Source: Nocardia asteroides (GTDB lineage Bacteria > Actinomycetota > Actinomycetes > Mycobacteriales > Mycobacteriaceae). From it: a stretch of 64,000 nt of DNA. Every line of letters starts with the position of its first letter. The stretch's first letter is position 1. The position numbers and the translations under genes are program-made. The DNA lies in assembly GCF_900637185.1 (NCBI RefSeq), contig NZ_LR134352.1, positions 3,958,001 through 4,022,000 on the forward strand. The letters run 5' to 3'. The notes below the pieces were generated by a model, which worked only from the letters and a program-made list of their open reading frames with translations, was not told the DNA's origin and ran no database searches. Shown piece by piece: positions 1 to 33,102 of this stretch.

Positions 1-166
1 CGGTCAGGCCCGGTCCGTAGTCGACGGGGACTTCTACCGCGAAGACGAGCCGCAGCTCGATCCGGTGATGCGCGGCGAACGCGGCGGCCCACCGCAGCGC
101 GTGGCGTGACTGCTCCGATCCGTCGACGCCGACGACGACCGGCTTCGGATTCCCGGAAATGTTCAT
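1..166 (-). CDS. Universal stress protein, N-terminal part (runs off left edge)
   Basis: The reverse strand reads MNISGNPKPVVVGVDGSEQS and continues to the window edge, so only about the first 55 residues are present. The VVGVDGSEQSRHALRWA start is the classical first strand and nucleotide-binding loop of the UspA fold. The ATG at 166 is preceded by a good Shine-Dalgarno (AAAGGGAG), which fixes the start. It is transcribed away from the CHAD/USP operon, and the roughly 200-bp divergent region between them carries two weak DosR-like boxes. Universal stress proteins of this type are typical members of mycobacterial dormancy regulons; membership here is inference. Confidence 0.85.
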   Translation of the reverse strand, partial: MNISGNPKPVVVGVDGSEQSRHALRWAAAFAAHHRIELRLVFAVEVPVDYGPGLT

Positions 167-242
167 CTGGCTCCCTTTCTGCTCGGTGTCAGCGTGCGCC
201 GGCCGACGCGACGCGCAGCAGGGTCAGGAGACCCCCGAGGGT

Positions 243-256
243 GGGTCTTTCGTCGT
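243..256 (+). promoter_or_regulatory. Candidate DosR-like box (weak)
   Basis: GGGTCTTTCGTCGT matches GGGACYWWNGKCCC at 10 of 13 informative positions. It lies between the divergent USP and CHAD genes. Weak on its own, it gains some weight from the better boxes elsewhere in the island. Confidence 0.35.
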
Positions 257-276
257 GACCAACCGTGATCCCGGAA

Positions 277-290
277 GGGACTTTCGCGGG
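277..290 (+). promoter_or_regulatory. Candidate DosR-like half-site (weak)
   Basis: GGGACTTTCGCGGG has a perfect left half (GGGACTTT) but a poor right half. It lies 85 bp before the CHAD start, 34 bp from the first candidate. Confidence 0.3.
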
Positions 291-374
291 CGAACGGCAC
301 TGTGTCGCAGGCGCGCGAGACGGAATCGTGAAAGTCACACCGCTCCACTCACCCGACAGTTCGAGGAGGACCCG

Positions 375-1322
375 ATGTCCATCGAGACCCGGCCGGCTGC
401 CGGCCCGCCGACGACGACCACGGAACCGAAGGTCAGCGGGATGCTGGCCCGGTACCTGCACGCGCAGCGGGAAACGATCATGGACGGGCAGGTCGCGGCC
501 GGTCACGACGATCCCGATTCGGTCGTGGCACTGGTCAAGGCCGCGCGGCGAGCCCGTTGCGCGCTCAGCGCGCACCCGCAGGCAGTCCGCAGGCAGTCCG
601 AAGTCCGTCGGCTCATCGAGGAACTGCGCTGGCTCGGCATCACTGTCGGCGCGGCACACGAATTGCGCACACAGTCCGCGCGCTTGCATGCCGCGGTCGA
701 TGTCCTGCGCCCACGGTATGTCCGTGGTCCGGTACCGGACCGAATCACCGAATACTTCGACAGCCGGAGCCGACCGGCCTGGATCGCCGCCCGGGACCTG
801 CTGTCCTCGAACAGGTTCCCGGCCATGATCGAGGATCTGATGGCCGAGGAACGGCTGCTGCGGACCGGGGTCGTGCCCGGCATCGACGACCCGGACAACG
901 CCGTGGTGCTCGCCGGGCAGCTGGCGCGCATCCGGCGGCGGATGCGCGCGGTCGGCAAGGCCAGAGACGAAGACGCCACCGACGCGGCGCTGCATGATCT
1001 GCGCAAAGCGGTGCGGCGCACGCGCTATTACCTGGAGTCGGTACAGGAGCTGGATCCGGCCCGCCACGCCCAGGCAGCCGCGGGTCTCACGGCTCTGCAG
1101 AGGCTGCTCGGTGAGTACCAGGACGCGGCGGTGGCCAAACATCACCTGATCCAGCTGACCCGGGAGGCCGAGAACGCGGGCGAGTCCACCTTCACCTACG
1201 GGCTGCTCATGCAGCGCGAAATCGACCGCACGGCCGAATACGGCGCGGCCCTGCCCGCCACCTATTGGCGATCGCTGCGCGACGCGCGGGTGATGGCCGA
1301 CGTCCACAGCATGACGAGCTGA
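375..1322 (+). CDS. CHAD domain protein
   Basis: 315-aa soluble protein. The ATG at 375 follows GAGGAGGA, so the longer upstream reading frame is not needed. It shows the alpha-helical CHAD (conserved histidine alpha-helical) fold. The characteristic basic helix LHDLRKAVRRTRYYL sits near residue 215, and an earlier basic helix (VKAARRARCAL) near residue 55, suggesting two imperfect repeats. CHAD domains bind polyphosphate, so a role in polyphosphate-linked stress physiology is plausible but inferred. It heads an apparent operon with a USP and two membrane proteins (24-bp gap to the USP). Confidence 0.85.
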   Translation: MSIETRPAAGPPTTTTEPKVSGMLARYLHAQRETIMDGQVAAGHDDPDSVVALVKAARRARCALSAHPQAVRRQSEVRRLIEELRWLGITVGAAHELRTQSARLHAAVDVLRPRYVRGPVPDRITEYFDSRSRPAWIAARDLLSSNRFPAMIEDLMAEERLLRTGVVPGIDDPDNAVVLAGQLARIRRRMRAVGKARDEDATDAALHDLRKAVRRTRYYLESVQELDPARHAQAAAGLTALQRLLGEYQDAAVAKHHLIQLTREAENAGESTFTYGLLMQREIDRTAEYGAALPATYWRSLRDARVMADVHSMTS

Positions 1323-1346: not shown

Positions 1347-2249
1347 ATGACCACCAAGTCCCACCCCACCGAGCACCACACGCGGCCCGTCCTGGTCGCC
1401 GTGGACGGATCCGCGACCTCCTATCAGGCCGCGGCGTGGGCCGCCAACGAAGCCGTTCTGCACCACCTTCCGCTGCATATCCTGACCTCCGGGGCGCTGC
1501 AAACCGGGTTCGGACCCGGCATGTCCTTGGGCGAAGCCGACCTGGAATGGCTGCGTGCCGACGCCGAGCGCGTCGTCGGCGAAGCCCGGCGGGTAGCCTG
1601 CGCCGCCGTTCCCGACCAGAACCTCACCATCACCACCGAAGTCGCGTTCGAGCAGGCGGCACCCCTGCTGATCACGCGCTCCACCGACGCGGAACTCCTC
1701 GTGGTCGGCAGCCGCGGCCTCGGCGCCTTCCAGCGCGGACTGCTCGGCTCGGTCAGTCGCGCGTGCGCCCAGCACGCCCACTGCCCGGTCGCGGTCGTGC
1801 ACGGCATCGCGGCCATCGACCCGGTCTCGGCGGCGATGCCTGTCCTCGTCGGTGTCGACGGCACCGCGAACAGCGTTCCCGCCCTGGCACTCGCCTTCGA
1901 GGAAGCCTCGCGCCGCAAGGTCGAACTCGTCGCACTGCATGCGTTCAGTGACGCCAGCGCCCTGGACCTGCCGGCGTTCGGGTGGGAGATGGGGCGCCAG
2001 CAGGCGGAAGCCGACCTGGCCGAGTCCTTGGCCGGGTACGCCGAGCGCTACCCCGACGTGCCGGTCCGCCGGATCGTCGTCGCCGACCGGCCGGTGCGGT
2101 CGCTGGTCGACGAGGCGGCATCGGCGCAGCTGGTGGTGGTCGGCAGCCACGGGCGCGGTGGATTCTCCAGCATGCTGCTCGGATCGACCAGCAACGCTCT
2201 GCTGCACGCGGTGGAAACCCCGACCATCGTGGTCCGGAACAGGGACTGA
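1347..2249 (+). CDS. Tandem-domain universal stress protein
   Basis: 300 aa with two UspA domains. Each carries the ATP-binding signature G-2x-G-9x-G(S/T): VVGSRGLGAFQRGLLGS in the first half and VVGSHGRGGFSSMLLGS in the second. Both sites therefore look competent for nucleotide binding, as in mycobacterial Rv2623/Rv1996/Rv2005c-type proteins. The RBS is GGAAAGG. It sits 24 bp after the CHAD gene and 4 bp before the Rv1733c-like gene, indicating one transcript. It probably acts as a cytosolic ATP-sensing stress protein in non-growing cells (family knowledge). Confidence 0.93.
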   Translation: MTTKSHPTEHHTRPVLVAVDGSATSYQAAAWAANEAVLHHLPLHILTSGALQTGFGPGMSLGEADLEWLRADAERVVGEARRVACAAVPDQNLTITTEVAFEQAAPLLITRSTDAELLVVGSRGLGAFQRGLLGSVSRACAQHAHCPVAVVHGIAAIDPVSAAMPVLVGVDGTANSVPALALAFEEASRRKVELVALHAFSDASALDLPAFGWEMGRQQAEADLAESLAGYAERYPDVPVRRIVVADRPVRSLVDEAASAQLVVVGSHGRGGFSSMLLGSTSNALLHAVETPTIVVRNRD

Positions 2250-2253
2250 TCCG

Positions 2254-2832
2254 ATGACGTCGTCGACCTTCCGTACCGACGCGCTGCCGGCCGGCATCGT
2301 GCGGTTGTGGCGATGTCGCCCCTGGAGCGGCAGTCCGTTGATGAGCTGGCCCGAGCGAGCGCGGTTCACGGCGCGGGTGATCGCGGCGGTGATGCTGCTG
2401 GCCGCCGTGCCACTGGCCGGCGCGGTGGGCACCATCTCCTACACGGACGAAGCCGCGCTCATCGGCGCCGAGCGCCGCGACAGCGCCGCCGTGACGGCGG
2501 TGGTGGTCGCGCCGCCGGACTACGGTCCCGCGCACGTGCGGCGCGCCCAGGTGAGCTGGACCACCCAGGCGGGCACCGTCGTCGCGACGGTGCCGGTCTC
2601 CTCGGTGGCGGACGAGGGTGACCGGATCACGGTATGGCTGAACAGGTCCGGCGAGCCCGTGCGACCGCCGAGGGAGCAGGTCGTTGCGGTTTTCACCGGC
2701 ATAGGAAGCGGGATCGTCGTGCTGGTGTGTGCCGGGCTGGCCGGTTGGGGCCTGATCTCGGCCACCGAGAGGCTCATCGGCTGGCAGCGCGGCAGGGTCT
2801 GGGACCGCGAAGCGTCCGCTCTCAGCCGATAG
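2254..2832 (+). CDS. Rv1733c-like two-TM membrane protein
   Basis: 192 aa. The ATG at 2254 is 4 bp after the USP stop. A short basic N-terminus containing a WSGSPLMSWPERARF stretch precedes a first transmembrane helix (about residues 40-60). An extracytoplasmic domain of about 80 residues follows, then a second helix (about 145-167) and a short basic tail. This two-helix layout, length and the LWRxxPWSGxPL-type N-terminus match the mycobacterial Rv1733c family, a DosR-regulon latency antigen of unknown biochemical function. Placement next to a USP also matches that context. Family assignment is from pattern recognition. Confidence 0.8.
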   Translation: MTSSTFRTDALPAGIVRLWRCRPWSGSPLMSWPERARFTARVIAAVMLLAAVPLAGAVGTISYTDEAALIGAERRDSAAVTAVVVAPPDYGPAHVRRAQVSWTTQAGTVVATVPVSSVADEGDRITVWLNRSGEPVRPPREQVVAVFTGIGSGIVVLVCAGLAGWGLISATERLIGWQRGRVWDREASALSR

Positions 2833-2845: not shown

Positions 2846-3436
2846 ATGTGGTTGCGGTGGGTTGTTCTCGTCACCGCCGGTGAGTTGCTCGGATTCTCGA
2901 TACCGGCGCTGGTCGCGACGTCCATGTGGGACCGGCCCGGAGTATGGCCGACGGTGGCACTGCTGGCCGCGGGCGCGGGCGAGGGCGCGGTGCTGGGCAT
3001 ATTCCAAGCGCGGGCGCTACGTCCGGCCATTCGTGATCTGAGCAATCGCGCCTGGGTTGCTGCGACGGCACTCGGTGCCCTGGTCGCCTGGTCGGTGGCG
3101 ATGGCACTGACACGTGCCGATGTCGTGCGCGAATGGCCTACGAGCTGGGCGATCCCGGTGCTGTGTACGGGCGGCGCGGTGGTGATCGCAGCCCTCGGGG
3201 TGACCCAGTGGGTAGTCCTGCGCCGATATCTCACCAGGGCAGGCTGGTGGATCGCCGCCACCGCTCTGTCGTGGGCGGCTGGGCTCACGGTGTTCGCGCT
3301 GTTCACCAGCCCGCTGTGGCACCAGGGCCAACCAGCCGGGGAGATCGCCGCGATCGGCATCGCCGGCGGTGTCTTGATGGCTGCGGTCATGGCGGCGGTG
3401 TCGGGAGGCTTTCTGTCCTGGCTGCTGCGTCCATGA
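2846..3436 (+). CDS. Polytopic membrane protein of unknown function
   Basis: 196 aa, start ATG 13 bp after the preceding stop with GGGAGACGCCG upstream. It is dominated by hydrophobic segments, about six predicted membrane spans separated by short basic loops. No catalytic motif is recognised. It is the fourth gene of the CHAD-USP-Rv1733c-like operon. Its function is unknown. Confidence 0.75.
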   Translation: MWLRWVVLVTAGELLGFSIPALVATSMWDRPGVWPTVALLAAGAGEGAVLGIFQARALRPAIRDLSNRAWVAATALGALVAWSVAMALTRADVVREWPTSWAIPVLCTGGAVVIAALGVTQWVVLRRYLTRAGWWIAATALSWAAGLTVFALFTSPLWHQGQPAGEIAAIGIAGGVLMAAVMAAVSGGFLSWLLRP

Positions 3437-3562: not shown

Positions 3563-3820
3563 ATGTATTGGTATGACCACGATGTCAGTGGATGGGGATA
3601 CGCGTGGATGGGCTTGGGCATGATCCTGTTCTGGGGCATGCTGATCGTCGGATTCGTGCTCGCGCTGCGATATCTGTTCCGGATGGAGGGGGAGCGCCGA
3701 GTGCATCCGGCGGCACCCGGCCCGGAACATGTCCTGGCGGAGCGATTCGCGCGCGGCGAGATCGACGCGCAGGAGTACGCGGACCGACTGGCCGTCCTGC
3801 GTTCCACCGCACAACGGTGA
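3563..3820 (+). CDS. SHOCT-domain single-TM protein
   Basis: 85 aa. An aromatic N-terminus (MYWYDHDVSGWGYAWMG) leads into one transmembrane helix (about residues 17-38). A linker and a C-terminal SHOCT motif (LAERFARGEIDAQEYADRL) follow. The RBS is GGAGG. Short membrane proteins with this SHOCT tail are common in actinobacterial stress clusters. SHOCT is thought to mediate oligomerisation, but no enzymatic role is known. It is separated from the upstream operon by 126 bp with possible regulatory boxes. Confidence 0.85.
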   Translation: MYWYDHDVSGWGYAWMGLGMILFWGMLIVGFVLALRYLFRMEGERRVHPAAPGPEHVLAERFARGEIDAQEYADRLAVLRSTAQR

Positions 3821-3853: not shown

Positions 3854-4198
3854 TTAAACCTTCTTGACCACGCTGGACTTGAGCTGCATCGGCCCGATGC
3901 CGTCCACCTTGCAGTCGATGTCGTGGTCGCCTACGCCGTTCACCAGGCGGATATTGCGCACCTTGGTGCCCGCTTTGATGCCGGTGGGGCTGCCCTTGAC
4001 CTTGAGCGTCTTGACGACGGTGACCGTATCGCCATCGGCGAGCACATTGCCGACGGCGTCGCGGATGACCGCGTCGACCGCCTCGGCCGAACCGGCGAGC
4101 GCCCATTCGTTGGCGCACTCGGGGCAGACCAGCAGGGCTCCGAGCTCGTAGGTGTACTCGCAGGAACACGCGGGGCAGGGCGGCAGCGTATCGCTCAT
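3854..4198 (-). CDS. PhnA/YjdM-family zinc-ribbon protein
   Basis: 114 aa, chosen ATG at 4198. The N-terminal zinc ribbon has CPAC near residue 8 and CPEC near residue 30. The C-terminal PhnA beta-domain contains the typical [16 protein letters not shown] segment followed by [10 protein letters not shown] and ends in the conserved VKK. The family was once linked to phosphonate metabolism, but its real role is uncertain. It is transcribed towards the SHOCT gene (convergent), and its promoter region holds a perfect 8-bp-arm palindrome. Confidence 0.92.
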
Positions 4199-4586: not shown

Positions 4587-6221
4587 ATGCGGGCCCTTCT
4601 GCCGACCTGGTCGGAGTGGAAGCCCGCTTTCCGGGCGCCGGGCGCGGATCTGCTGTCGGGGCTGATCGTGGCGCTGGTGGCGTTGCCGCTGGCGCTGGGA
4701 TTCGGCATCAGTTCCGGTCTCGGCGCCGCCGCCGGTCTGGCGACGGCGATCGTGGCCGGTGCGGTGGCCGCGGTGTTCGGCGGCTCCCGCTTCCAGGTGT
4801 CCGGCCCGACCGGCGCCATGACGGTGGTGCTGGTGCCGATCGTGGCCGAGCACGGTGCGTCCGGAGTGCTGACCGTGGGTCTGCTGGCCGGGCTGATGCT
4901 GGTCGGGCTCGCGTTCGCCAGGGTCGGGCGGGCGGTGCGGTTCATGCCGGCTCCCGTGATCGAGGGGTTCACCGCGGGCATCGCGGTGGTCATCGCGCTG
5001 CAACAGTTTCCGGGTGCGCTCGGGATCGCCGGCGCCGAAGGCGAGAAGGTCTGGCAATCGGCGGTCGATGCCGTGCGCCGGTTCGTCGAGGAGCCACACT
5101 GGACGGCGCCGGTGACGGCGCTCGCGGTGGCAGCGGTCGTCCTGATCGGCGGACGGTGGCGGCCGAAGCTGCCGTTCGCGCTGGTCGCGGTAACCGTGTC
5201 GACTGTCGTCGCGCGGATATTCGATCTGGATCTCGGGCGCATCGGCGCCATCCCCGCCGGGCTACCCGCGCCCTCACTCGAGTTCCTGCAGCTCGACGAC
5301 ATCGCCACCCTGCTGCTGCCCGCGCTCGCGGTCGCGGCCCTGGCCGCCCTCGAATCCCTGCTCTCGGCCACCGCCGCCGATGCGATGGCCGTGGGCACCC
5401 GTCACGATCCCGACCGCGAACTCCTCGGCCAGGGCCTGGCCAACATCGCCGCGCCGCTGTTCGGCGGCGTCCCCGCCACGGGCGCCATCGCCCGCACCGC
5501 GGTGAACGTGCGCTCCGGTGCCCGCACCCGGTTGGCGGCCCTCATCCACGCGGCGATCCTGGCCGGAATCGTCTATCTCGCCGCCGGACTCGTCGCCGAC
5601 ATCCCGATCGCCGCCCTGGCCGGCGTCCTGCTGGCCACCACCGTGCGGATGGTGGAGGCGGCCTCGGTCGCCGCGATCGCCCGAGCCTCTCGGGGGGACG
5701 CGATCGTCATGATGATCACCTTCGGCGTCACCGTCGCCTTCGACCTTGTCACCGCGGTGGTCATCGGCATTGGCTTCGCCTTGGTACTGGCCGTGCGTGC
5801 CATCGCTCGCGAGGCCACCCTGCAGCAGGTTCCCCTCGACGACACCGACCACCTCGGCGAGGAACATGCCCTGCTGCGCGACCACATCGTCGCCTACCGC
5901 ATCGACGGGCCGCTGTTCTTCGCCGCCGCTCACCGCTTTTTGCTGGAGCTGGCCGAAGTCGCCGACGTGAAGGTGGTGATCCTGCGCATGTCCCGCGTCA
6001 CCGCCCTCGACACCACCGGAGCCCTGGTCCTCAAGGACGCCATCAACAAGCTCGAACATCGCCACATCAGCGTCCTGATGTCGGGTCTGCGCGAGGACCA
6101 TCGCGCCCGCCTGACTACCATGGGCGCGCTTCCGTCGGGTGGGGACGACGCCGTCTTTCCCGACACTGGTTCCGCCATTTCCCATGCTCGCCGGGTGGTA
6201 TCGGCCCGTCGACAGCAGTAG
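4587..6221 (+). CDS. SulP-family anion transporter with STAS domain
   Basis: 544 aa. The first about 400 residues form the polytopic SulP core, starting with the conserved [19 protein letters not shown] segment, then [15 protein letters not shown] and [15 protein letters not shown] cytoplasmic STAS domain follows ([13 protein letters not shown]... [17 protein letters not shown], about residues 435-530). The family moves sulfate, bicarbonate or dicarboxylates. The substrate cannot be read from sequence. The mycobacterial Rv1739c SulP sits beside DosR-regulon genes, matching this context. It is downstream of the small ORF and AT-rich operator. Confidence 0.93.
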
Positions 6222-6375: not shown

Positions 6376-7377
6376 ATGCGAGTGTGGCGAGTGGATCGTC
6401 CAGGACCGGTGGGTTCCTCCACTCCGCTGCGGTTCGGGGATGAACCTGTGCCCGTCGTCACCGGCGACGAATTGCTGGTGCGCGTGCTGTCCTGCGGTGT
6501 GTGCCGCACCGATCTGCACGTGGTGGAAGGCGACTTGCCGGTCCATCGCGAGGCCGTGACACCCGGGCACGAGGTGGTTGCCGAAGTCGTCTCCGTGCCG
6601 GAGGGATGCGACACGATCTCGGTCGGCGACCGAGTCGGCATCCCCTGGTTGCGGTACACCTGCGGAGTGTGCCGGTACTGCCTGCGCGGCGCGGAGAACG
6701 TGTGCCCGCGGTCGCGCTACACCGGGTGGGACGCCGACGGGGGGTACGCCGAATACGCCATGGTCCCTGTCGATTTCGCTCTGCCGCTGCCGGCCGGGTA
6801 CAGCAACGAGGAACTGGCTCCGCTGCTGTGCGCCGGAATCATCGGTTACCACGCGCTGCTGCGGGCGGAGGTGCCGGACAACGGCGTCCTGGGGATCTAC
6901 GGTTTCGGCGGCAGCGCTCATCTCACCGCGCAGATCGCCCTCGCGCGCGGCGCCAGGGTGCACGTGATGACCCGTGACGCGGCCGCCCGCGACCTGGCGC
7001 TGGAACTCGGCGTCGACTCCGCGCAGGGCGCCGCCGACCCCGCACCCGAGCCGCTGGATTCCGCGATCCTGTTCGCCCCGGTCGGCGAGCTGGTTCCGCC
7101 GGCGATGGCGGCGCTGGACGCGGGCGGCACCCTGGCCGTCGCCGGGATCCACCTCACCGATATCCCGGCGCTGAACTATCAGCGCCACCTGTTCCGGGAG
7201 CGCCAGATTCGCAGCGTCACGTCCAACACCCGCGCCCAGGCATCGGAGTTCCTCACGCTGGCCGGGCAATACCGGCTCCGCGTAACGACCCACCGCTATC
7301 CGCTCGAACACGCCGATCGCGCGCTGCGTGATCTGTCGCTCGGCCGATTCGACGGCGCGGCCGTGCTGGTTCCCTAG
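6376..7377 (+). CDS. Zinc-dependent alcohol dehydrogenase (MDR family)
   Basis: 333 aa, start ATG 6376 after GGAGCGAGACG. The catalytic zinc site is visible as [14 protein letters not shown] and the GHE of [10 protein letters not shown]. The structural zinc lobe is [15 protein letters not shown] (four Cys). The nucleotide loop is [11 protein letters not shown], a GxGxxG variant lacking one Gly. The family oxidises alcohols or reduces aldehydes with NAD(P). In the dormancy context it may help dispose of reductant, which is inferred. It converges on the Rv2030c-like gene 39 bp away. Confidence 0.92.
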
Positions 7378-13175: not shown

Positions 13176-13284
13176 ATGCGGTCCACACCGATAGCCGAAG
13201 TCACCTCAGGAGGGGCCCTCGTGCCCTAATCGGCGGCCTTACACAGTGCGAGGGTGGTGGGACATTCGACGAAGGACGGACATC

Positions 13285-16781: not shown

Positions 16782-16818
16782 GGTTACCAGCCTGGCGGTA
16801 AGGGCCGGGTCCAGGTCA

Positions 16819-16832: not shown

Positions 16833-16840
16833 GTACGCCG

Positions 16841-22485: not shown

Positions 22486-22833
22486 CTCGGTACCTCGATC
22501 CGGTCGCATTCGCTGTCGATATCCAGCGTCCGACGGGAGCCGGACCTCGCGATACGGTCGAAGGTCCTGGCTGTGGGCTGTCATTGGTCCCGATCGGCCC
22601 CGTCGTGCCGCACGTCGGCAGCGTGGAAAATGTCCGTGCGCGCGGAGGGAAAGTCCCGGGCACAGAGGTCATCGGGACGCGGGCGACGATGCCCTTCGGA
22701 CCTAGGCGCGGTGGTACTCCACAGCCGATGATGGATACATCGACAGCACGGCTCCCGGGTAGACGACAACGAGGTCGTTCACTCAGCTCACATCAGCACA
22801 GCGCGGTGATGGTGTGGCTCGTGCTCCGTCGGT
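22486..22833. other. 348-bp intergenic region upstream of ppsA
   Basis: There is no convincing gene here. It contains the ppsA RBS/promoter, a DosR-like box at 22555-22568, and further partial matches (AAAGTCCCGGG half-site near 22650, GCCCTTCGGACC near 22690). The ctpF gene ends at its far side. Confidence 0.6.
22555..22568 (-). promoter_or_regulatory. DosR-like box upstream of ppsA
   Basis: On the minus strand AGGACCTTCGACCG matches 10 of 13 positions. It is centred about 75 bp before the ppsA start and the operon it heads. Confidence 0.5.
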
Positions 22834-25395: not shown

Positions 25396-25462
25396 AGCGG
25401 CCTCTTTCCGCTGGTCGATGGCTGCCGAGACCAGTGTGTCCATCGTGGATCGGTCCGGACTA

Positions 25463-25476
25463 CGGCCGAAGTGCCC
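25463..25476 (-). promoter_or_regulatory. DosR-like box between ctpF-like and DUF2267 genes
   Basis: On the minus strand GGGCACTTCGGCCG matches 10 of 13 positions. It is 68 bp upstream of the ATPase start and 136 bp before the divergent DUF2267 gene. Confidence 0.5.
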
Positions 25477-25611
25477 GACACCGAAGACACAAAGACCACT
25501 GCGAACGGCAGGTGACGACCAAAGCCACCCGGCGGGAGGACGGTGTGCTCTGTTCGCTCGTCGCCCCGGCTGGTCGAATCGAGGAACCACTGCGACCACC
25601 AGGAGAAGCCC

Positions 25612-26277
25612 ATGTCGAACCACCATGATCCACTGGCTCCGACGGTGCACACCGCCCACGTGTGGCTGCGTGCGGTCGCCGAGAGCCTCGACACCGACGA
25701 TCGCCGATTCGCCCTGCGTGCCGTACGCGCATGGTTGCACACCGTGCGTGATCGGATCGCCATCGACAGTTCGGCACACCTGACGGCACAGCTACCCGAA
25801 CTGCTGCGCGGGGTGTACTACGAGAACTGGGTACCGAGCCATCTTCCGGTGCGACACGGGCTGCGGGAGTTCATTTCGCAGTTCGCCCGAGAGGCCGAGA
25901 TCGATCCCGCCGAGGTCCCCGTTGTCGTGGCCGCCGTCACCTACGCGCTGGAGGAGAAGTTCTCACCGGGTCTGCTGTCCCGTGTCTTCGCCGGGCTGCC
26001 GATCACCCTCTACCGCCTGATGTATGGCGCCGAGTCCGACATCGCAGGCGAACTACACCTCCCCGAGGACATCGGTGACGAACAAGAGGCACCGGACCGG
26101 CTGGGTCGGCTCGAGCAGCACACGACGACGCTGACCGAGGCCGTTCTCGCCCTGTCCCACGGACTCGAGCAGTTGCCGACCGATGTCTCGGGCTCGACCC
26201 GTGCCGCCGAGGCGGCCCGCCGCGCCCACGACTTGCTGCTGGCGGGCGGCGCGGGGCCGCGCACGCGACCGGCATGA
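25612..26277 (+). CDS. DUF2267 protein
   Basis: 221 aa, ATG 25612 with AGGAGAAG upstream. The region from about residue 15 to 130 (VWLRAVAESLDT... RFALRAVRAWLHTVRDRI... QLPELLRGVYYENW... REFISQFARE) fits DUF2267, an all-helical family frequent in stress clusters with no known enzymatic function. A C-terminal coiled-coil-like segment (RLGRLEQHTTTLTEAVLAL) follows. Its last codons overlap the nitroreductase start (ATGA), so the two are co-translated. Confidence 0.88.
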   Translation: MSNHHDPLAPTVHTAHVWLRAVAESLDTDDRRFALRAVRAWLHTVRDRIAIDSSAHLTAQLPELLRGVYYENWVPSHLPVRHGLREFISQFAREAEIDPAEVPVVVAAVTYALEEKFSPGLLSRVFAGLPITLYRLMYGAESDIAGELHLPEDIGDEQEAPDRLGRLEQHTTTLTEAVLALSHGLEQLPTDVSGSTRAAEAARRAHDLLLAGGAGPRTRPA

Positions 26278-27281
26278 CCGCGCCGGATGGGAAGGAGCCG
26301 AGGGTGATCGAGCACACTCCCGACCTGGCGACCGTTCGCGCGGTCTTCGAGCGGGCGGCGCGGGCGCCCTCGCTGCACAACAGCCAGCCCTGGCAGTGGC
26401 GTTGGGACGGCTCCGCGGCCGCGTTGACCGTGGATGCCGCACGACTGCTGCCGGCCACCGACGCGTTCAACAGAGAGGGGATCCTGGGCTGTGGGGTGAT
26501 GTTGCAGCACGCTGAAGTCGCGTGGGCCGCCGCCGGTTGGGAAACCCGATCCGCGCGCTTCCCCGATCCCACCGTGCGCGCCCATCTCGCTTCGGTCGAA
26601 CCTGTGTCGCGCACCGCGCCAGGGGAGTCCGAACTGCTGCTCGGCACGGCGATCGATCGGCGATACAGCGACCGGATGCCGATGGACCCACCGGCGGACT
26701 GGGATACGACGGCACAGGTCCTGGAATTTCTCGGGCACAGATCTCACACGAGTGTGACGTTTCTGGACGCCGGCGGCGTCGGGAAGCTGCGCCGGCTCTC
26801 GGCGCTGACGACGCGACTACGGCGGTACGACCCCAAGTACGGTGCGGAGCTGAACTGGTGGACCGCCGGCCCTGACACGGGACGAGCGGGCGTACCCCCG
26901 GAGGTTCGGCCGTCGGCCGAAGACCGCGGTCATGTTCCATTCGGACGGGCGTTTCCGGCAGGCACGGCCGAATCACCGGAGACCGGCGGCGACGATGCCG
27001 CCCGGATCACGGTGCTGTCGACCGACGACGATGCGCCGCCCACCCTGCTCGACTGCGGCCACGCGCTGTCCGCGATGCTGCTCGAGTGCACCGTGCAGGG
27101 ACTGTCGACATGCACCGTCTCCCACATTGTCGAACTTCCGTCCTCGCGGGCGGTGCTCGCCGAACTCGTCGGCCGTCGCTACCCCCAGGTGCTGGTCCGG
27201 ATCGGCACCGCGTGCGCGCCACCACCGCCGCGCACCCCGCGCCGGTCGATCGACAGCATTCTCGAGCTGAGCCCAGGCTGA
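26274..27281 (+). CDS. Acg-type nitroreductase family protein
   Basis: 335 aa. The signature RAPSLHNSQPWQWRW near residue 34 and DAFNREGILGCGVMLQH near residue 65 define the Acg/Rv2032 nitroreductase family. ELVGRRYPQVLVRIGTA forms the C-terminal flavin-fold strand. It is the second such protein in the window, about half-identical by eye to the one at 13285 in the signature region. It is translationally coupled to the DUF2267 gene. In M. tuberculosis Acg is one of the most strongly DosR-induced genes. Confidence 0.92.
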   Translation: MTAPDGKEPRVIEHTPDLATVRAVFERAARAPSLHNSQPWQWRWDGSAAALTVDAARLLPATDAFNREGILGCGVMLQHAEVAWAAAGWETRSARFPDPTVRAHLASVEPVSRTAPGESELLLGTAIDRRYSDRMPMDPPADWDTTAQVLEFLGHRSHTSVTFLDAGGVGKLRRLSALTTRLRRYDPKYGAELNWWTAGPDTGRAGVPPEVRPSAEDRGHVPFGRAFPAGTAESPETGGDDAARITVLSTDDDAPPTLLDCGHALSAMLLECTVQGLSTCTVSHIVELPSSRAVLAELVGRRYPQVLVRIGTACAPPPPRTPRRSIDSILELSPG

Positions 27282-27366: not shown

Positions 27367-28392
27367 TCAGGCCAGGGAGCGAGTGCTCGTGCCCGGTTGT
27401 GGATCGTCCGGCGCGACCCGCGGACCGCTCCAGCGGACAGCATGGGTATGGGCGGCCAGGGCCGCGAGAGCCGGGAGGTCGAAGACATCGGTTCCGGGCA
27501 GCATGACGGTGGCCGCCGCGGCCGCCACCCCGAGTTCGGCTGCTCCGACGACGTCCGTTCCGGTCGACAACCGGTACGCGATGGCGGCGACCAGGCTGTC
27601 TCCGGCGCAGGCGTCGCTGCGCGGCGGGGTCGGCAGCGGCGGTGCGGAGATCACATAGTGCGACTCGCTGTCGGAACAGACCGCGCCCAGCGGCCCGACC
27701 GTGGTCACCGCGTGCTCGCAGGCGCCGCGGTCGAGCAGCAGGGTGTTGGCGTCCCGTGCGTCGGCGTAGGTGGTGACGGGACGGCCGATCAGCGCCGCGG
27801 CTTCGGTCCGATCGAGGCGGATGAGGAACGTCCGTTCGGTCAGCATCGTCGCCAGTTGGACACCGGCGATGTCGGCGATCACCTTGGCGCCGGTGGCGGC
27901 GGTGATCCGTGCCACGGCGGCGGCGAATCCGGCGCCGAGTCCGGGGGTGGCGCCGCCGGACAGGACGAGAAGCCCGCAGCGCCGTGCGGTGTCGGCGATG
28001 ACGTCGAGACATCGCAGCTCCTCCTCGGCCGAGAGCCGGGGCCCACCCGGTACGACGTGATAGCTACAGGCGGTCTCGTCGTCGGCGACGACGAACGCCT
28101 CGCGAGTGTCGCCGCCGATGTCGACGGGAAGATGTGGCAGACCTTCCTCGTCGAGGAGCCGGTTCAGGCGTTCACCGACTTCACGGCCCGCGGTGTGCAC
28201 CGCCAGGGTCGCACCGCCCAGACGGCGCACACACCGGGCGACATTGACACCCCCGCCGCCGGCCCGGATCGAGCGCAGCTGGGCCCGCGACTTTCCTTCC
28301 GGTAGCAGCCGGTCGACATCGAGCGACAGATCGACGGTCGGGTTGACGGTGAACGTGGCGACGATGCTCGACGGGTGTTCGCCGGTGGTCAT
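27367..28392 (-). CDS. PfkB-family sugar kinase (1-phosphofructokinase type)
   Basis: 341 aa. VATFTVNPTVDLSLDVDRLL at the start and RAGGGGVNVARCVRRLGG are the PfkB signature 1 region of the 1-phosphofructokinase/tagatose-6-phosphate kinase branch. The catalytic signature reads SDACAGDSLVAAIAYRL, with Cys in place of the usual Gly in GAGD. M. tuberculosis PfkB (Rv2029c) is a DosR-regulon member next to Rv2030c. It follows the flavodoxin gene by 10 bp, so both probably share the strong box at 29022. Confidence 0.92.
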   Translation of the reverse strand: MTTGEHPSSIVATFTVNPTVDLSLDVDRLLPEGKSRAQLRSIRAGGGGVNVARCVRRLGGATLAVHTAGREVGERLNRLLDEEGLPHLPVDIGGDTREAFVVADDETACSYHVVPGGPRLSAEEELRCLDVIADTARRCGLLVLSGGATPGLGAGFAAAVARITAATGAKVIADIAGVQLATMLTERTFLIRLDRTEAAALIGRPVTTYADARDANTLLLDRGACEHAVTTVGPLGAVCSDSESHYVISAPPLPTPPRSDACAGDSLVAAIAYRLSTGTDVVGAAELGVAAAAATVMLPGTDVFDLPALAALAAHTHAVRWSGPRVAPDDPQPGTSTRSLA

Positions 28393-28402: not shown

Positions 28403-28963
28403 TCAGGGGTGATAGGTGTTGATGGCCGGCGCGTGCGGCAGCGCGAGGGCGTGGGCGATCAGGCTCGTCCACTGCCGCACGGCCTCCCAGTCCCGGAGGT
28501 CGCCGTAGCGGGTCCCGCCGAGCAGCCGGAACATCGCGCGGGCCCGCCAGGACACGCCCGCCCGCTCGTATTTGCCGGCGAAGGCGGCGTAGTCGCGAGG
28601 ATGCAGCGCGCCGATCACTGCGCCGATCTTGCTCGGGATCTGCCGTCCCGCCCACCGTCCGATCGGTCCACGCAGCGCGGGCCCGAGCCCGACGCTGAAC
28701 AGCCAGACGTCCATGTCGCCGAGCGCGGGCAGGTTGCGCCGAATGTAGGCCGACGCCTCGGGCAACAGATCCATGTCGTGGATGGCGCTGCCGATCACGA
28801 CGGTGTCGAAACCGGTCAGATCGGGTGCGTGCTCGATGTCGTGCAGCTCGGCGCGCGCTCCGCGGGACAGCAGGTCCTCGCAGATGTATTCGGCGATGTC
28901 GCGGGTCGAGCCCTGGGCGGTGGCGAACAGGACCGCGACGCGGGGTGCAGGTGTTGTGGTCAT
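28403..28963 (-). CDS. Flavodoxin-domain protein (HemG-like fold)
   Basis: 186 aa. VAVLFATAQGSTRDIAEYI is the FMN phosphate loop, and TVVIGSAIHDMDLLPEASAYI resembles the menaquinone-dependent protoporphyrinogen oxidase (HemG)/flavodoxin group. The rest, GKYERAGVSWRARAMFRLLGGTRYGDLRDWEAV, is typical of actinobacterial HemG-like flavodoxins. The partner is unknown. It is the second flavodoxin-like gene in the island and is divergent from the ABC exporter over a 168-bp region with two near-consensus DosR-like boxes. Confidence 0.87.
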   Translation of the reverse strand: MTTTPAPRVAVLFATAQGSTRDIAEYICEDLLSRGARAELHDIEHAPDLTGFDTVVIGSAIHDMDLLPEASAYIRRNLPALGDMDVWLFSVGLGPALRGPIGRWAGRQIPSKIGAVIGALHPRDYAAFAGKYERAGVSWRARAMFRLLGGTRYGDLRDWEAVRQWTSLIAHALALPHAPAINTYHP

Positions 28964-29021
28964 GATGTCAGCCTCGCCTGTCGGCGCCGTCGCCGGTCAG
29001 AGCCGTGATGCCCGTAAGGCA

Positions 29022-29035
29022 GGGACCAATGGCAC
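29022..29035 (+). promoter_or_regulatory. Near-consensus DosR-like box (flavodoxin/pfkB side)
   Basis: GGGACCAATGGCAC matches 12 of 13 informative positions of GGGACYWWNGKCCC. It is centred about 65 bp before the flavodoxin start. Confidence 0.75.
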
Positions 29036-29081
29036 CGGCGGCCCGGACCGGCGACGTATGGTGACCAACGCGGGTCCATGC

Positions 29082-29095
29082 GGGACCTTCGGCTC
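29082..29095 (+). promoter_or_regulatory. Near-consensus DosR-like box (ABC exporter side)
   Basis: GGGACCTTCGGCTC matches 12 of 13 positions and ends 36 bp before the ABC ATPase start at 29132. It overlaps an alternative upstream ATG at 29078, which argues for the 29132 start. Confidence 0.75.
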
Positions 29096-29131
29096 TCCTC
29101 GACGGCGCGGGTCCGCAGCGACGATCAGACC

Positions 29132-30052
29132 ATGACGCACGAACCGGCCATCGCTGTCGCCCAAATGAGCAAGTCCTTCGGGTCGACCGTCGCACTGGAC
29201 GCACTCGATCTGACCGTGCAGCCGGGGACGGTGCACGGATTCCTCGGACCGAACGGGGCGGGCAAGACGACCACGATCCGGATCCTGCTCGGGCTGATGC
29301 GCGCCGACGCGGGGACGGCCCGAGTGCTGGGCCGGGATCCCTGGGCCGATGCGGTGGCCGTCCACCGGCGGCTGGCGTACGTGCCCGGCGAGGTCACCCT
29401 CTGGCCGGGTATCACCGGTGGGGAGACCATCGACCTGCTCGCGAAGCTACGTGGCGGGATCGATCCACGCCGACGTGCGGAACTGCTCACGCGGTTCGAG
29501 CTCGATCCGGCGGTCAAGGCCCGCGCCTACTCCAAGGGCAACCGCCAGAAGGTCGCGCTGATCGCGGCATTGGCCTCCGACGCCGAACTGTTCCTGTTCG
29601 ACGAGCCCACCGCGGGCCTGGACCCCTTGAAGGAGATGGAGTTTCAGCACTGCGTCCGCGAACTCGTCGCCGAGGGCCGCACCGTGCTGTTGTCGAGTCA
29701 TCAACTCGCCGAGGTGGAGGCCCTCTGCGACGCGGTCACCATCGTCCGGCGGGGAAGGACCGTGGAGACCGGTACCCTGGCCGAGCTGAAGCACCTCCGT
29801 AGTACCTCGGTCGACGTCGAAACAGTGCGACCCGCAGCGGAATTGGCCGACGTCCGGGGTGTACGCGACCTGGTCACGGCCGGCACCCGCGCCCGCTTCG
29901 AGGTCGACACGGCAGACCTCGAGCATGTGCTGCGCGCCGTGGTCGAGTTCGGCATCGTGGACATGACCACCAGCAAACCGACCTTGGAAGACATCTTCCT
30001 GCGCCACTACGCCGGCGCCGGGGACCGCACCCCCACCGCGGCGACGTCATGA
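29132..30052 (+). CDS. ABC exporter ATP-binding protein
   Basis: 306 aa from ATG 29132; an in-frame ATG at 29078 would place a DosR-like box inside the gene. Walker A is GPNGAGKTTTIR, the signature loop is YSKGNRQKVALI, Walker B is ELFLFDEPTAGLD, and the switch His is in LLSSHQLAEVE. It belongs to the ABC-2/DrrA-like exporter class. The C-terminal about 80 residues form the regulatory extension. It overlaps the permease start (ATGA). The substrate is unknown. The adjacent WS/DGAT gene hints at a lipid-related role. Confidence 0.92.
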   Translation: MTHEPAIAVAQMSKSFGSTVALDALDLTVQPGTVHGFLGPNGAGKTTTIRILLGLMRADAGTARVLGRDPWADAVAVHRRLAYVPGEVTLWPGITGGETIDLLAKLRGGIDPRRRAELLTRFELDPAVKARAYSKGNRQKVALIAALASDAELFLFDEPTAGLDPLKEMEFQHCVRELVAEGRTVLLSSHQLAEVEALCDAVTIVRRGRTVETGTLAELKHLRSTSVDVETVRPAAELADVRGVRDLVTAGTRARFEVDTADLEHVLRAVVEFGIVDMTTSKPTLEDIFLRHYAGAGDRTPTAATS

Positions 30053-31656
30053 CCACGGCGACGCGCGAGCGCGGAACCGCGGGCATGACAACGCTGGTCC
30101 GCTTCACGCTGCGGCGTGAACGACGCATCCTGCCCTGGTGGCTACTGGGCGTCGCCGCGCTGATGGCGCTGCAATCGGTGAGCAGTCAGAACTTCTACGA
30201 CACACCCGCCAAGCTCGCCCAGCTGCGCGCCACCATGGAAGCGAACGCCGCCGTCGTCGCGATGGGCGGCCCGACCCGGTTGCTGGAGACGATCGGTGGC
30301 GAGGTCGTCTTCGAGATCTTCGCCTACCTGGCTGTCGTCGTCGCGCTGCTGAACATGTTCCTGGTGGGCCGCAACACCCGATCGGACGAGGAGACCGGAC
30401 GAGCCGAACTGATCAGGTCGGCGCCGGTGGGCAGGCACGCGAGCATGGTCGCCGCCCTGGTCAGCGCGCTGATCGTCGACTGCGCGGTGGCGGTGATCGT
30501 TTCCTTGACGGCGGCCGTGACCGGACTGCCCGCGGGCGGGTCGGCGCTGGTCGGAGTGGCGATCGCGGGAATCGGATTCACCGTGGCGGCGGCGACGGCC
30601 GTGGCCGCCCAGGTGTTCGAGAATCCGCGCAGCGTCTACGGCGCGGTCACCGGACTGATCGTGGCCATGTATGTGGTGCGCGCGGTCGGTGATGCCGGTC
30701 AGAGCGCGGTCGCTTGGGCATCGCCGATCGGCTGGGGGCAGCGGACGTATCCTTTCGTCGACGACCTCTGGTGGCCGGTGACGTTGTTCGCCGCGACTTC
30801 GGTGGTGTTGATCGGCGTCGCCTTCGGGTTGTCACGACGGCGCGACTTCGGCGCCGGGCTGCTCGGCTATCGGTCCGGGCGTGACACGGCTTCGGTACTG
30901 CTGGGTTCGCCGTTGGGGCTGGTGTGGCGGCTGCAGCGAGGCGCCGTTCTCGCCTGGGCGATGGGCGCGCTGGTCCTCGGCGGCGCCTACGGCTCCTTCG
31001 CCGACAGCATCGAGCAGTTCCTGGCCGACAACCCCGAGCTCGCGGCCTATCTCGGGGGAGACGCGGTGCGCGATGCCGTGGACTCCTACCTCGCGCTGAC
31101 CTTGGCCATCGGTGCGCTGCTGGCCGCCGCGTGTGGCGTTGCCTGCGTGCTGCGAGCACGATCGGAGGAATCAACAGGCCGCGCGGAACTGGTTCTGGCC
31201 GGTCCGGTCGGGACGGTGCGGTGGCTCACCGGCTACCTGGTCGTCGCCGTGACGGGCAGCGCCGTGGTCCTGTTCGCGGGCGGACTCGGGGAGGGTCTGG
31301 CGCACGGCGCGCGCATCGGCGAGCCGGTCCAGGCGCTGCGCCTGGCCGTGTCGGCGCTCGGGTATCTGCCGGCCGTATGGGTCGTCGTCGCCGTGACCGT
31401 GGTGGTCGTGGCCTGGGCACCGGATTTCGCGGCTGTGCTCGGCTGGACCTACTTCGCCTACGTCGTCGTGGCGCTGCTGTTCGTCGATGCCTTCGAACTG
31501 CCCGGCTGGGTCGCTGGGGCCTCACCCCTGCGTCACACCCCGCTCGTACCACTCGAACGAATGGATCCGGCGGCAAGCGCTGTCCTCCTCGCGGTGACAG
31601 TGGGCGCGACAGCCGTCGCGTGGGCAGGGATACGGCATCGCGATGTCTGCCGTTGA
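30049..31656 (+). CDS. ABC-2 type exporter permease (double-length)
   Basis: 535 aa, about 12 transmembrane helices in two similar halves. Each half starts with a basic stretch and a long helix, and carries a repeat of the RSDEETGRAELIRSAPVGR / RSEESTGRAELVLAGPVGT motif (near residues 110 and 378). This is the tetronasin/anti-microbial-type fused permease seen in actinobacteria. It forms the membrane part of the exporter with the ATPase at 29132. The repeated E-x-TGRAEL segments probably form coupling helices to the ATPase. Confidence 0.9.
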   Translation: MTTATRERGTAGMTTLVRFTLRRERRILPWWLLGVAALMALQSVSSQNFYDTPAKLAQLRATMEANAAVVAMGGPTRLLETIGGEVVFEIFAYLAVVVALLNMFLVGRNTRSDEETGRAELIRSAPVGRHASMVAALVSALIVDCAVAVIVSLTAAVTGLPAGGSALVGVAIAGIGFTVAAATAVAAQVFENPRSVYGAVTGLIVAMYVVRAVGDAGQSAVAWASPIGWGQRTYPFVDDLWWPVTLFAATSVVLIGVAFGLSRRRDFGAGLLGYRSGRDTASVLLGSPLGLVWRLQRGAVLAWAMGALVLGGAYGSFADSIEQFLADNPELAAYLGGDAVRDAVDSYLALTLAIGALLAAACGVACVLRARSEESTGRAELVLAGPVGTVRWLTGYLVVAVTGSAVVLFAGGLGEGLAHGARIGEPVQALRLAVSALGYLPAVWVVVAVTVVVVAWAPDFAAVLGWTYFAYVVVALLFVDAFELPGWVAGASPLRHTPLVPLERMDPAASAVLLAVTVGATAVAWAGIRHRDVCR

Positions 31657-31770
31657 TCGTGTTCGCGGTTCGTCGGTGCCGGCGTCACCTCCAGGTACCG
31701 ACCTGGCGGACGCGCCTGATCGACAAGGGGGAGATGCCGGCCACCGTATCGCTGCTCTCGAGGTCGAACC

Positions 31771-33102
31771 ATGAACGAGCTGCGTCCCCTGGATTGGGGA
31801 TTTCTGGAACTGGAGAACACCGATCGCCACATCAGTCTCGGCATCGGTGCCGCCGCGATCATCACCGGGCAGGCGCCGAGCCGCGCGGAATTCTCCGCCT
31901 GGCTGGGCGAGCGAATCAGCCATGTCGGACGGCTGAGCCAGCGAGTCCACCGAGCGCCATTGGAACTGACCGCCCCGGCGTGGGAACAAGACCCCGAATT
32001 CGATCTGGCACAGCACATTCGGTGGACCGCGCTGCCCGCACCCCGAGACGAGTCGATGTTACGGGAGTTGATCGCCGTCGAGCTGGAGCAACGACTCGAT
32101 CGAGATCACCCGCTCTGGGAATGCGTGGTTGTCGAGCAATTGGCGGGAAACCGCTGGGCCATGATCGTCAAGGCACACCACAGCATGGTCGATGGAATGT
32201 CGGGAATCGCGTTGCTCGAGCGTCTGTGTGATCCCGGATCGCCCAGCCGCGCGCCGGACAGCTCTCCACGATCTGTTCGGCCCCGCCCCGGACTCGGCGA
32301 GTGGGTGACCACCGGCATTCGGCTTCCGTTGACAGCGCCCAGGTTCGCGCTGTCGATGGTCCGCGCTGTCGTTCCGGTGGTGTACTCCGCGCTGGCTCCG
32401 AGTACCCCGTCCTCGTTGAACGGTCCGATCGGCCGGAAGCGCCGCTATGCCGTCGCGAAGGTGTCGATGTCCGACATCCGCGCCATCGAGGCGACGTTCG
32501 GCACTTCCGTCAACGACGTGGCACTGGCCGCGATCACCGCCGCCTATCGACGCCTCCTGCGGCACCGTGGCGAAGAACCGACCGCGGACAAGATCCGCGT
32601 CCTCGTCCCCGTGTCCATGCGCGGCGACGACGCCGAATCCGCGCTGGACAACCGCATCTCGGTGATCCTTCCCTATCTCCCGGTGGAACGCTCCGACCCG
32701 GTCGAGCAGCTGATCGCCGTGCATGAACGAGTGGCACGGCACCGGGCGCGAGGCGAAGCGGAAGCAGAGACCTCGATTGTGTCGATGGCCCAGTTCCTGC
32801 CTTTCCGGATCGGAGCCTGGGCCGTTCGGATAGCCGGCCATTTTCCGCAGCGCAGCGTCGCGGCGCTGGCCACCAACGTTCCGGGACCTCGACGACGACT
32901 CGGCGTAAACGGTCGCGACGTGCTGGAGATCTGGCCCTGTATCCCCATCGCCATGCGCCTGCGCACCACGATCGCGATCCTGAGCTATCGCGATCGCCTC
33001 GTCTTCGGTATCACCGGCGACTACGGCGCCACGCCCGATATCGATCTCATCGCCGACGGCATCCGACACGGTATCGCGGAACTGCGGGCACACACCCAGT
33101 GA
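31771..33102 (+). CDS. WS/DGAT acyltransferase (Tgs-like)
   Basis: 443 aa. The acyltransferase motif KAHHSMVDGMSG (His136, His137, Asp141, Gly142) and the C-terminal FFxNVPGPxx-like element (ALATNVPGPRRRLG) define the wax ester synthase/diacylglycerol acyltransferase family. It makes triacylglycerol or wax ester from acyl-CoA. M. tuberculosis Tgs1 (Rv3130c) is the DosR-regulon enzyme for TAG storage in hypoxia. It follows the ABC permease by 114 bp, so co-transcription is possible but not certain. Confidence 0.93.
   Translation: MNELRPLDWGFLELENTDRHISLGIGAAAIITGQAPSRAEFSAWLGERISHVGRLSQRVHRAPLELTAPAWEQDPEFDLAQHIRWTALPAPRDESMLRELIAVELEQRLDRDHPLWECVVVEQLAGNRWAMIVKAHHSMVDGMSGIALLERLCDPGSPSRAPDSSPRSVRPRPGLGEWVTTGIRLPLTAPRFALSMVRAVVPVVYSALAPSTPSSLNGPIGRKRRYAVAKVSMSDIRAIEATFGTSVNDVALAAITAAYRRLLRHRGEEPTADKIRVLVPVSMRGDDAESALDNRISVILPYLPVERSDPVEQLIAVHERVARHRARGEAEAETSIVSMAQFLPFRIGAWAVRIAGHFPQRSVAALATNVPGPRRRLGVNGRDVLEIWPCIPIAMRLRTTIAILSYRDRLVFGITGDYGATPDIDLIADGIRHGIAELRAHTQ

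Follow-up and report, generated by a model that had tools for sequence, protein, structure and literature searches.

In a 64,000-nucleotide window of the Nocardia asteroides genome (bases 3958001-4022000 of a single contig of 6,983,363 bases), we observe that positions 1-33102 belong to a contiguous island of genes of the DosR-regulon type, which runs from ~3951.0 to 3991.1 kb of the genome, i.e., roughly 40 kb with dosS and dosR included. We consider this island to be, with a probability of about 0.78 and on the basis of its sequence, a DosR-family hypoxia/nitric oxide (NO) response regulon kept as one ~40-kb block with its own regulator. An initial annotation had described positions 1-33102 as a DosR-type dormancy island in a non-mycobacterial genome, which Nocardia indeed is, and had stated that no dosR or dosS gene is in the window. 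This is literally true, but both genes are located 4.4-6.8 kb to the left of base 1, and the island is therefore ~40 kb long and has its own sensor and regulator aboard. Coordinates below are window positions (negative to the left of base 1) unless given as genome positions or as positions in L002, to the left of the window.

The initial annotation counted about 20 counterparts of Mycobacterium tuberculosis DosR-regulon genes, which is too high, since its own list sums to 14. All 14 of these, located at 1-33102, were confirmed at the family level, the evidence being family models, matches to PDB entries or reciprocal best hits in a Mycobacterium genome (G086), and they comprise four universal stress proteins (USPs), two Acg-type nitroreductases, a CBS protein, and Rv1733c-, Rv2030c-, HAD-GH65, Rv2004c-, PfkB-, CtpF- and WS/DGAT-type proteins, the Rv genes in question being ones that we take to be members of the M. 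tuberculosis DosR regulon. The remaining genes of the island encode CHAD, SHOCT-like, YjdM, SulP and alcohol dehydrogenase proteins, two flavodoxin-like proteins, a short-chain dehydrogenase (SDR), ppsA, a DUF2267 protein, an ABC exporter and small proteins. Among the extra members that had been named, ppsA, adh, SulP, a Flavodoxin_5 protein and the ABC ATPase were found, whereas the second flavodoxin (15832..16362) scores under its cut-off and the exporter membrane subunit is identified by position. Of the 28 open reading frames (ORFs) called at 1-33102, one of 29 aa is omitted from the features described below. In addition to these ORFs, one of the four USP genes straddles the window edge (-706..166), with two domains at genome 3957312-3958145. 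Clustering is above chance: 12 of the 22 USP domain matches in the whole genome are inside the 40-kb island (binomial 8e-22), a count in which each tandem domain and each fragment of a broken gene is entered, so that the matches are not independent. No HSP20 (hspX) gene is present in the block, the sole HSP20 match in the genome being at 3606834, and no nar gene, and thus no linked narGHJI, occurs among the ORFs scanned from L002:13000 to window position 33102.

A genome search for DosR and DosS, which the initial annotation had proposed as a check, identified three DosR copies, of which the island one has a haem-GAF-type kinase as its neighbour. The island gene, dosR1 (genome 3952961-3953593; window -5039..-4407; minus strand), matches PDB 3c3w (M. 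tuberculosis DevR) at E 1.2e-94 and is identical to DevR at 154 of 208 residues. It keeps D8, D9, D54, T82, K104, K179, K182, N183 and T198 and has Ser at 205, i.e., nine of the ten positions which we take to be functional. The adjoining dosS1 (genome 3951168-3952913; window -6832..-5087; minus strand) encodes a GAF-GAF-HisKA_3-HATPase protein whose best PDB match is 2vzw (E 2.4e-68), which we take to be the GAF-A domain of DosT, followed by DevS. Its GAF-A domain is 76% identical to that of DosT and 64% to that of DosS, and in alignment it has equivalents of DosS His149 and Tyr171, with Gly at position 87; the numbering and roles of these three positions are assumed from general knowledge. 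Gly is also found at position 87 in DosT, with Glu in the DosS of G086, and the DevS chain 2y8h has Gly there too, presumably as an engineered change. Judging from these identities and residues, the island kinase is of the DosT-like haem-GAF type. Outside the island, dosR2 (genome 2214754-2215398) is part of a dosRS2 pair at 2.213-2.215 Mb beside a USP gene, a SulP transporter gene and an Acg gene, and dosR3 (genome 3171478-3172101), 71% identical to DosR1, is adjoined by a kinase gene. All three copies conserve D54, K179, K182 and N183, with T205 present only in DosR3.

Several smaller features surround the island pair. Upstream of dosR1, an apparently broken tandem USP gene occupies genome 3953692-3954247 (L002:15692-16247; minus strand), its first domain matched only at its end and its second split over two frames, and another USP remnant is present at genome 3955620-3956053 (plus strand). 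On the 3′ side of dosS1, a 125-aa ORF (L002:12643-13020) has a three-helix-bundle/phosphatase-like N-terminal motif and a 36% identical relative in N. ignorata.

Predicted DosR boxes were scored with a 16-bp matrix built from 25 distinct Streptomyces coelicolor site sequences (PMC5069765, Table 1), i.e., from another genus, which avoids circularity. For each gene at the head of an operon, we took the top-scoring site between 180 bp upstream of the start and 20 bp into the gene, excluding genes that are not first in their transcription unit and controls with a regulon-family match. This analysis demonstrated that 198 island-family genes in Nocardia loci, which come from related genomes (this one included) and are not independent, outscore 63 controls taken from the genome studied here (p=2e-6). 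The 22 such genes located in its island and at its dosRS2 locus also outscore these controls (p=1.7e-6), and of 200 palindromic matrices with permuted columns, none equalled the real one in either test. The control loci (L004-L007) are non-random, having been chosen for holding USPs, and the controls are conservative because L004 holds a strong box before a USP gene. Counting promoter regions, 6 of 16 in the island reach at least 7 bits compared with 5 of 60 elsewhere (p=0.009), and at 6 bits the proportions are 6 of 16 and 8 of 60 (p=0.04). These six island regions are those of the Acg gene left of the window and those at 13212, 16818, 22586 (ppsA), 25462 and 29081. In addition, a strong pair of boxes at -6987 and -6966 (15.1 and 12.3 bits) is located at the start of the 125-aa ORF downstream of dosS1, the called start of which overlaps the box at -6987; this ORF was left out of the 16-region count. 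The strict pattern RGGGMCNNNNGKCCCY has 11 sites in the genome (6.98 Mb), of which four have a dosR gene no more than 6 kb away (binomial 2e-7, a distance limit chosen once the sites were known), and five of the other seven are inside called ORFs.

A number of results weigh against DosR control of the island as a whole. In a third test, with 165 non-family genes from other Nocardia loci, 1 of 200 permuted matrices did as well as the real one, and at 8 bits the promoter comparison is not significant (2 of 16 in the island, 3 of 60 elsewhere; p=0.28). The strict pattern is found 11 times genome-wide against 27 times for its reversed control, the island itself contains a single strict site, and the strict site by dosRS3 is within an ORF as called, although the start of that ORF may be too far upstream. 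No box is present within 180 bp of dosR1 (-0.6 bits), nor of the Rv2030c-like (2.5), SulP (3.8) and WS/DGAT (1.0) genes. Across the 84 kb of L002 and the window, 13 of the 17 positions scoring at least 8 bits are away from island promoters, and at 6 bits the island has nine intergenic hits, where 20 shuffles average 2.1 but reach as many as 10. Within the window part of the island there are no exact palindromes (GGGMC-N4-GKCCC), and those with at most one mismatch number 13 where 17.7 are expected. The enrichment appears only in the matrix test confined to upstream regions, and the box evidence is uneven: boxes are enriched as a group and missing before dosR1 and several other genes.

Elsewhere in the genome, the dosRS2 locus (2212018-2218235) has predicted boxes before its USP gene (16.7 bits), before dosR2/SulP (11.2 bits) and before its Acg gene (8.3 bits). 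We also observed a likely satellite DosR target locus at genome 4133597-4136582 (L004:7597-10582), with genes for a protein with the C-terminal domain of S30AE (a ribosome hibernation factor), a pyridoxamine oxidase-like protein, a fatty-acid desaturase and a USP, and with a 14.4-bit predicted box ~70 bp upstream of the USP gene.

The cleaner boxes of the dosRS2 locus are one reason to ask if DosR2 or DosR3 is the working regulator and the island dosRS1 a decaying copy. The apparently broken USP gene beside dosR1 points the same way, and DosR2 is marginally nearer to DevR than is DosR1 (158 against 154 of 208 residues, with 152 for DosR3). We regard this as doubtful, however, given that the dosR1 and dosS1 ORFs are intact and keep nearly all of the residues checked, and that the 93% identity between DosR1 and its N. 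ignorata counterpart speaks for a function that has been kept.

The distribution of the island was surveyed in 60 genomes searched with four proteins (this genome, 35 other Nocardia and 24 from other families of the order); the counts that follow are confined to the 35 other Nocardia genomes, with second pieces of split matches mostly not entered. DosR (E 1e-50) is present in 32 of the 35. The Rv2004c-like gene is present in 19, the HAD-GH65 gene in 23 and ppsA in 20, and 14, 18 and 15 of these, respectively, are within 60 kb of a dosR gene on the same contig. Of the remaining 15 unlinked cases, three are farther off (73-734 kb) and 12 have no dosR gene on the same contig, which says little because the assemblies are fragmented. 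Nocardia sp. MH4 (L020) contains, within 21 kb, genes for HAD-GH65, CtpF-like, ppsA, SDR, Rv2004c-like, USP, Acg, dosR, dosS, CHAD and adh, and the named Nocardia loci show similar content with a shifting gene order. Of the 39 USP domain matches in another Nocardia genome, which has two contigs (G023), 31 are between 5.716 and 5.941 Mb. Linkage is not uniform, in that several named Rv2004c-like loci show few island families within 10 kb.

The three markers tend to be present or absent as a set: all are present in 19 of the 35 genomes and all absent in 12, where 7.1 and 2.4 are expected if they were independent (pairwise Fisher p ~2e-6 or less; species relatedness uncorrected). Such an all-or-none pattern would suit a genomic island gained by horizontal transfer, as opposed to a cluster passed down by inheritance, but en bloc loss yields the same pattern, the GC content of the window part (0.68-0.71) is inside the range of the remaining window, no tRNA gene is present in L001, L002 or the window, and no integrase or transposase occurs among the Pfam-scanned ORFs, the flanking ones having been scanned in part; we judge horizontal acquisition to be about as doubtful as the idea of a decayed dosRS1. 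Quite improbable, finally, is a general stress or stationary-phase island under another regulator (a sigma factor, Crp/Fnr or a PrrA-like protein) with dosRS governing few promoters: several island promoters, that of dosR1 included, have no good box, and the available texts report that PrrAB also induces both dosR genes in M. smegmatis (PMC6898941) and that the DosR of M. abscessus shares only six orthologues with the M. tuberculosis regulon (PMC10034137), but the box enrichment obtained with a matrix from another genus, the recurrent dosRS linkage across Nocardia, and the control of clusters of similar genes by OsdR in S. coelicolor and DosRS in M. avium, as described in the source excerpts, argue against it.

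If the block is a DosR-family regulon, as we prefer, the haem-GAF kinase DosS1 would bind oxygen (O2), and a fall in O2, or its displacement by NO or carbon monoxide, would lead DosS1 to phosphorylate DosR1. Phosphorylated DosR1 would then bind GGG(A/C)C-N4-G(G/T)CCC-like palindromes at island promoters and switch on the USPs, the Acg-type flavoproteins, the Hrp1-like CBS protein, phosphoenolpyruvate synthase and PfkB, together with the GH65-phosphoglucomutase fusion, the CtpF-like pump and the triacylglycerol synthase. The predicted outcome is a slow, storage-lipid, redox-buffered cell state.

For comparison with Mycobacterium, we used PDB chains and selected regions of three genomes. A query with M. 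tuberculosis DevR found none of 396 Mycobacterium genomes at E 1e-124, and among 298 genomes of the order its best matches are 95-96% identical, so that H37Rv was not identified among these genomes. One of the genomes used, G086, was placed in Mycobacterium on the grounds that its DosR is closest to that of M. tuberculosis (DevR); its first DosR is 95% identical to DevR, with 195 of 208 residues shared in the residue alignment. A 22-kb region of G086 (2.480-2.502 Mb) contains ppsA, Rv2004c-like, USP, HAD-GH65, further USP, kinase, second DosR, PfkB, Rv2030c-like and Acg genes, and a WS/DGAT gene, an Acg gene, dosS, dosR and a USP gene are together at 3.279-3.285 Mb. The clustered form is therefore present in mycobacteria too. 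Reciprocal best hits in G086, assessed over the selected regions rather than the whole genome, were obtained for ten island proteins: dosS, dosR, ppsA, the Rv2004c-, HAD-GH65-, PfkB-, Rv2030c-, CtpF- and WS/DGAT-type proteins, and the Acg protein at 13285. The island dosS pairs with the first G086 pair and the island dosR with the second. The USP at 1347 and the Acg protein left of the window are also reciprocal in G086, but belong to multi-copy families.

The second dosRS pair of G086 (2493856-2496403) is located inside its ppsA/Rv2004c/Rv2030c island, and the GAF-A domain of the kinase in this pair shares no more than 55% identity with that of DosT. The position of this kinase beside the second dosR gave the idea that DosT is the orphan of a lost second dosRS pair, which is not supported, since the GAF-A domain of DosT, 55% identical to that kinase, is 74% identical to DosS1 of G086 and 71-77% identical to 13 of 14 Nocardia kinases, with 67% for the DosS3 of this genome. 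We likewise discarded the idea that ppsA, Rv2004c and USP genes form an ancestral operon under strict conservation: these genes adjoin one another in Mycobacterium and in Nocardia, but the order in which they are transcribed is reversed, reading USP, Rv2004c, ppsA in G086 and ppsA, SDR, Rv2004c, USP in Nocardia. The DosR regulon of M. tuberculosis is dispersed over several loci. That the Nocardia regulon is one unit of inheritance, gained and lost whole, and the M. tuberculosis arrangement a remnant of an ancestral block, with the dosRS-island mycobacteria as an intermediate, may be entertained as an unlikely scenario.

The window part of the island begins with the tandem-domain USP gene at its edge (1..166, continuing left to -706; minus strand; gene call and domain matches), followed on the plus strand by a divergent CHAD-domain protein (375..1322; Pfam PF05235), a tandem USP (1347..2249; PF00582; PDB 3cis/2jax, 'TB31.7', E 2e-59), an Rv1733c-family protein (2254..2832; NCBIfam NF050032, 80.5 bits against a cut-off of 80), a protein with no Pfam or NCBIfam match that has relatives at other Nocardia loci (2846..3436), and a small SHOCT-like protein (3563..3820; 25.3 bits, under the cut-off of 27). 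A YjdM/PhnA protein (3854..4198; minus; Pfam/NCBIfam scan) precedes a SulP-type anion transporter with a STAS domain (4587..6221; plus; NCBIfam matches under their cut-offs) and a zinc-binding alcohol dehydrogenase family protein (6448..7377; plus; TIGR02822, 565 bits). Two minus-strand fusions identified by their domains come next, the Rv2030c-like phosphoribosyltransferase and erythromycin-esterase protein (7417..9456; G086 reciprocal best hit, 63%) and the Rv2006-like HAD (beta-phosphoglucomutase type) and GH65 protein (9846..13058; 49% over 790 aa in G086, reciprocal). The gap between the latter and a divergent Acg-family (Rv3131-type) nitroreductase (13285..14268; plus; NF047509, 336 bits against a cut-off of 199; PDB 2ymv, E 1e-40; G086 reciprocal best hit, 48%) contains a predicted box (13212..13227; ~7.4 bits).

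Downstream, four minus-strand genes encode a two-CBS-domain protein resembling Hrp1 (14415..14864; best PDB match Rv2626c, E 3.8e-32), a USP (14861..15835; Pfam), a weak flavodoxin-like protein (15832..16362; no Pfam match, and an NCBIfam flavodoxin score of 22.5 bits, under the cut-off) and, heading its operon, a small conserved protein with no Pfam or NCBIfam match and with relatives at other Nocardia loci (16353..16781). Two predicted boxes 22 bp apart (16818..16855) are 44-66 bp upstream of the start at 16781, only the first exceeding 6 bits. The relatives of this small protein in other Nocardia islands have the top median box score among the families tested (10.7 bits, n=5). A similar-looking small protein, also with no Pfam or NCBIfam match, is encoded left of the window (L002:16932-17381), and its box score is unremarkable (2.9, n=3). 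The minus strand continues with a tandem USP (16987..17895; Pfam), the Rv2004c-like protein with its C-terminal AAA_33 domain (17941..19419; Pfam; G086 reciprocal best hit, 49%), the SDR (19416..20159; Pfam) and ppsA (20197..22485; Pfam/NCBIfam; reciprocal, 63%), which has ~110 bp upstream a predicted box (22586..22601) that, at 11.5 bits, is the top upstream island box within the window. The CtpF-like P-type cation ATPase (22834..25443; minus; Pfam/NCBIfam; reciprocal, 53%) is separated by a gap with a 7.0-bit predicted box (25462..25477) from a divergent DUF2267 protein (25612..26277; plus; Pfam), which is followed by the second Acg-family nitroreductase (26304..27281; plus; NF047509, 273 bits against the same cut-off of 199). 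A PfkB-type hexose kinase (27367..28392; Pfam/NCBIfam; reciprocal, 34%) and a Flavodoxin_5 protein (28403..28963; Pfam) are on the minus strand. The gap to the exporter has predicted boxes (29021..29096), one at 29021 (7.5 bits) and one at 29081 (8.2 bits) over the exporter's called start. The plus-strand DrrA-like ABC exporter ATPase (29078..30052; Pfam) and its putative membrane subunit (30049..31656; assigned by position, with no family match) precede the Tgs-like WS/DGAT acyltransferase (31771..33102; plus; Pfam/NCBIfam and PDB; reciprocal, 42%), which is the right end of the island.

To the right of the island, a TauE/SafE sulfite exporter gene is spread over two frames (33160-34240; profile positions 2-90 and 99-235 in separate ORFs), i.e., it is a pseudogene or reflects a sequencing error, and it adjoins a metallo-beta-lactamase/rhodanese gene (34306-35682). 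Two similar sets of genes, each for an unknown protein, an ABC-2 permease, a DrrA-type ATPase and an EryCIII-like glycosyltransferase, are located at 35867-40413 and 58944-63412, with Pfam run on four genes of the former and two of the latter and the rest assigned from similar protein starts; a condensation-domain protein (40418-41842) adjoins the first set. Together they resemble a duplicated cassette for a secondary metabolite or a glycolipid.

The M. tuberculosis DosR regulon has been studied as a latency programme, and the Nocardia island supports a view of this regulon as an old actinobacterial low-oxygen programme. The block and its sensor offer a compact system for testing regulon logic outside M. 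tuberculosis, and the all-or-none pattern in the genus makes block inheritance versus later scattering testable. The island also points to likely regulon members that are absent from the mycobacterial view, i.e., ppsA, the SulP transporter, the alcohol dehydrogenase and the small protein family.

Among known systems, the island resembles the M. tuberculosis DosR regulon in having relatives of DosR and DosS/DosT, a related predicted palindromic box, and the USP, Acg, Hrp1, Rv1733c, Rv2004c, Rv2006, Rv2030c, PfkB, CtpF and WS/DGAT families, and differs in that the Nocardia genes are in one block with dosRS, that no hspX is in the block, and that ppsA, adh, SulP, SDR, flavodoxin and ABC exporter genes are added. 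It resembles G086 in the packing together of dosRS, ppsA, Rv2004c, USP, HAD-GH65, PfkB, Rv2030c and Acg genes. No paper on a Nocardia DosR island was present among the open-licence PMC matches listed.

Three precedents come from other actinobacteria, each as described in the available excerpt of its source. In S. coelicolor, OsdR and OsdK (SCO0167-SCO0219) sit in a dense cluster with USP, PPDK, zinc alcohol dehydrogenase and nitroreductase genes, and targets of M. tuberculosis DevR are bound by OsdR in vitro (PMC5069765). The Nocardia island likewise places a dosRS-type pair within a USP/nitroreductase/PPDK/adh cluster, with a similar predicted box. In contrast, the OsdR cluster has narGHJI, a nitrate transporter gene and a PPOX gene, whereas the scanned ORFs of the Nocardia block include no nar gene; the Rv1733c-, Rv2030c-, Rv2004c-, HAD-GH65-, PfkB-, CtpF- and WS/DGAT-type members of Nocardia are not named for the OsdR cluster in the excerpt (PMC5069765). 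In M. avium, the largest cluster of DosRS-dependent, hypoxia-induced genes is MAV_2494-2508, four USPs, three nitroreductases and the sensor kinase MAV_2508 are among the products of the induced genes, and homologues of DosR and DosS are noted in other actinomycetes (PMC11876180). The same source puts the M. tuberculosis DosR regulon at 48 genes. Nocardia shares with M. avium a contiguous block of such genes, with hypoxia induction known for M. avium and predicted from sequence for Nocardia; the two differ in that the M. avium dosRS genes are elsewhere (MAV_4108-4109) and that MAV_2508 is reported to be without a functional haem GAF-A domain (PMC11876180). DosR-regulon homologues and boxes have also been reported in Rhodococcus equi 103S (PMC2947987), like Nocardia a non-mycobacterial relative, with the R. 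equi boxes given as a supplementary table and no island described in the excerpt. The precedents in S. coelicolor, M. avium and R. equi mean that this kind of system was already known, and the Nocardia island is a clear, extended example of that kind rather than a new kind of system.

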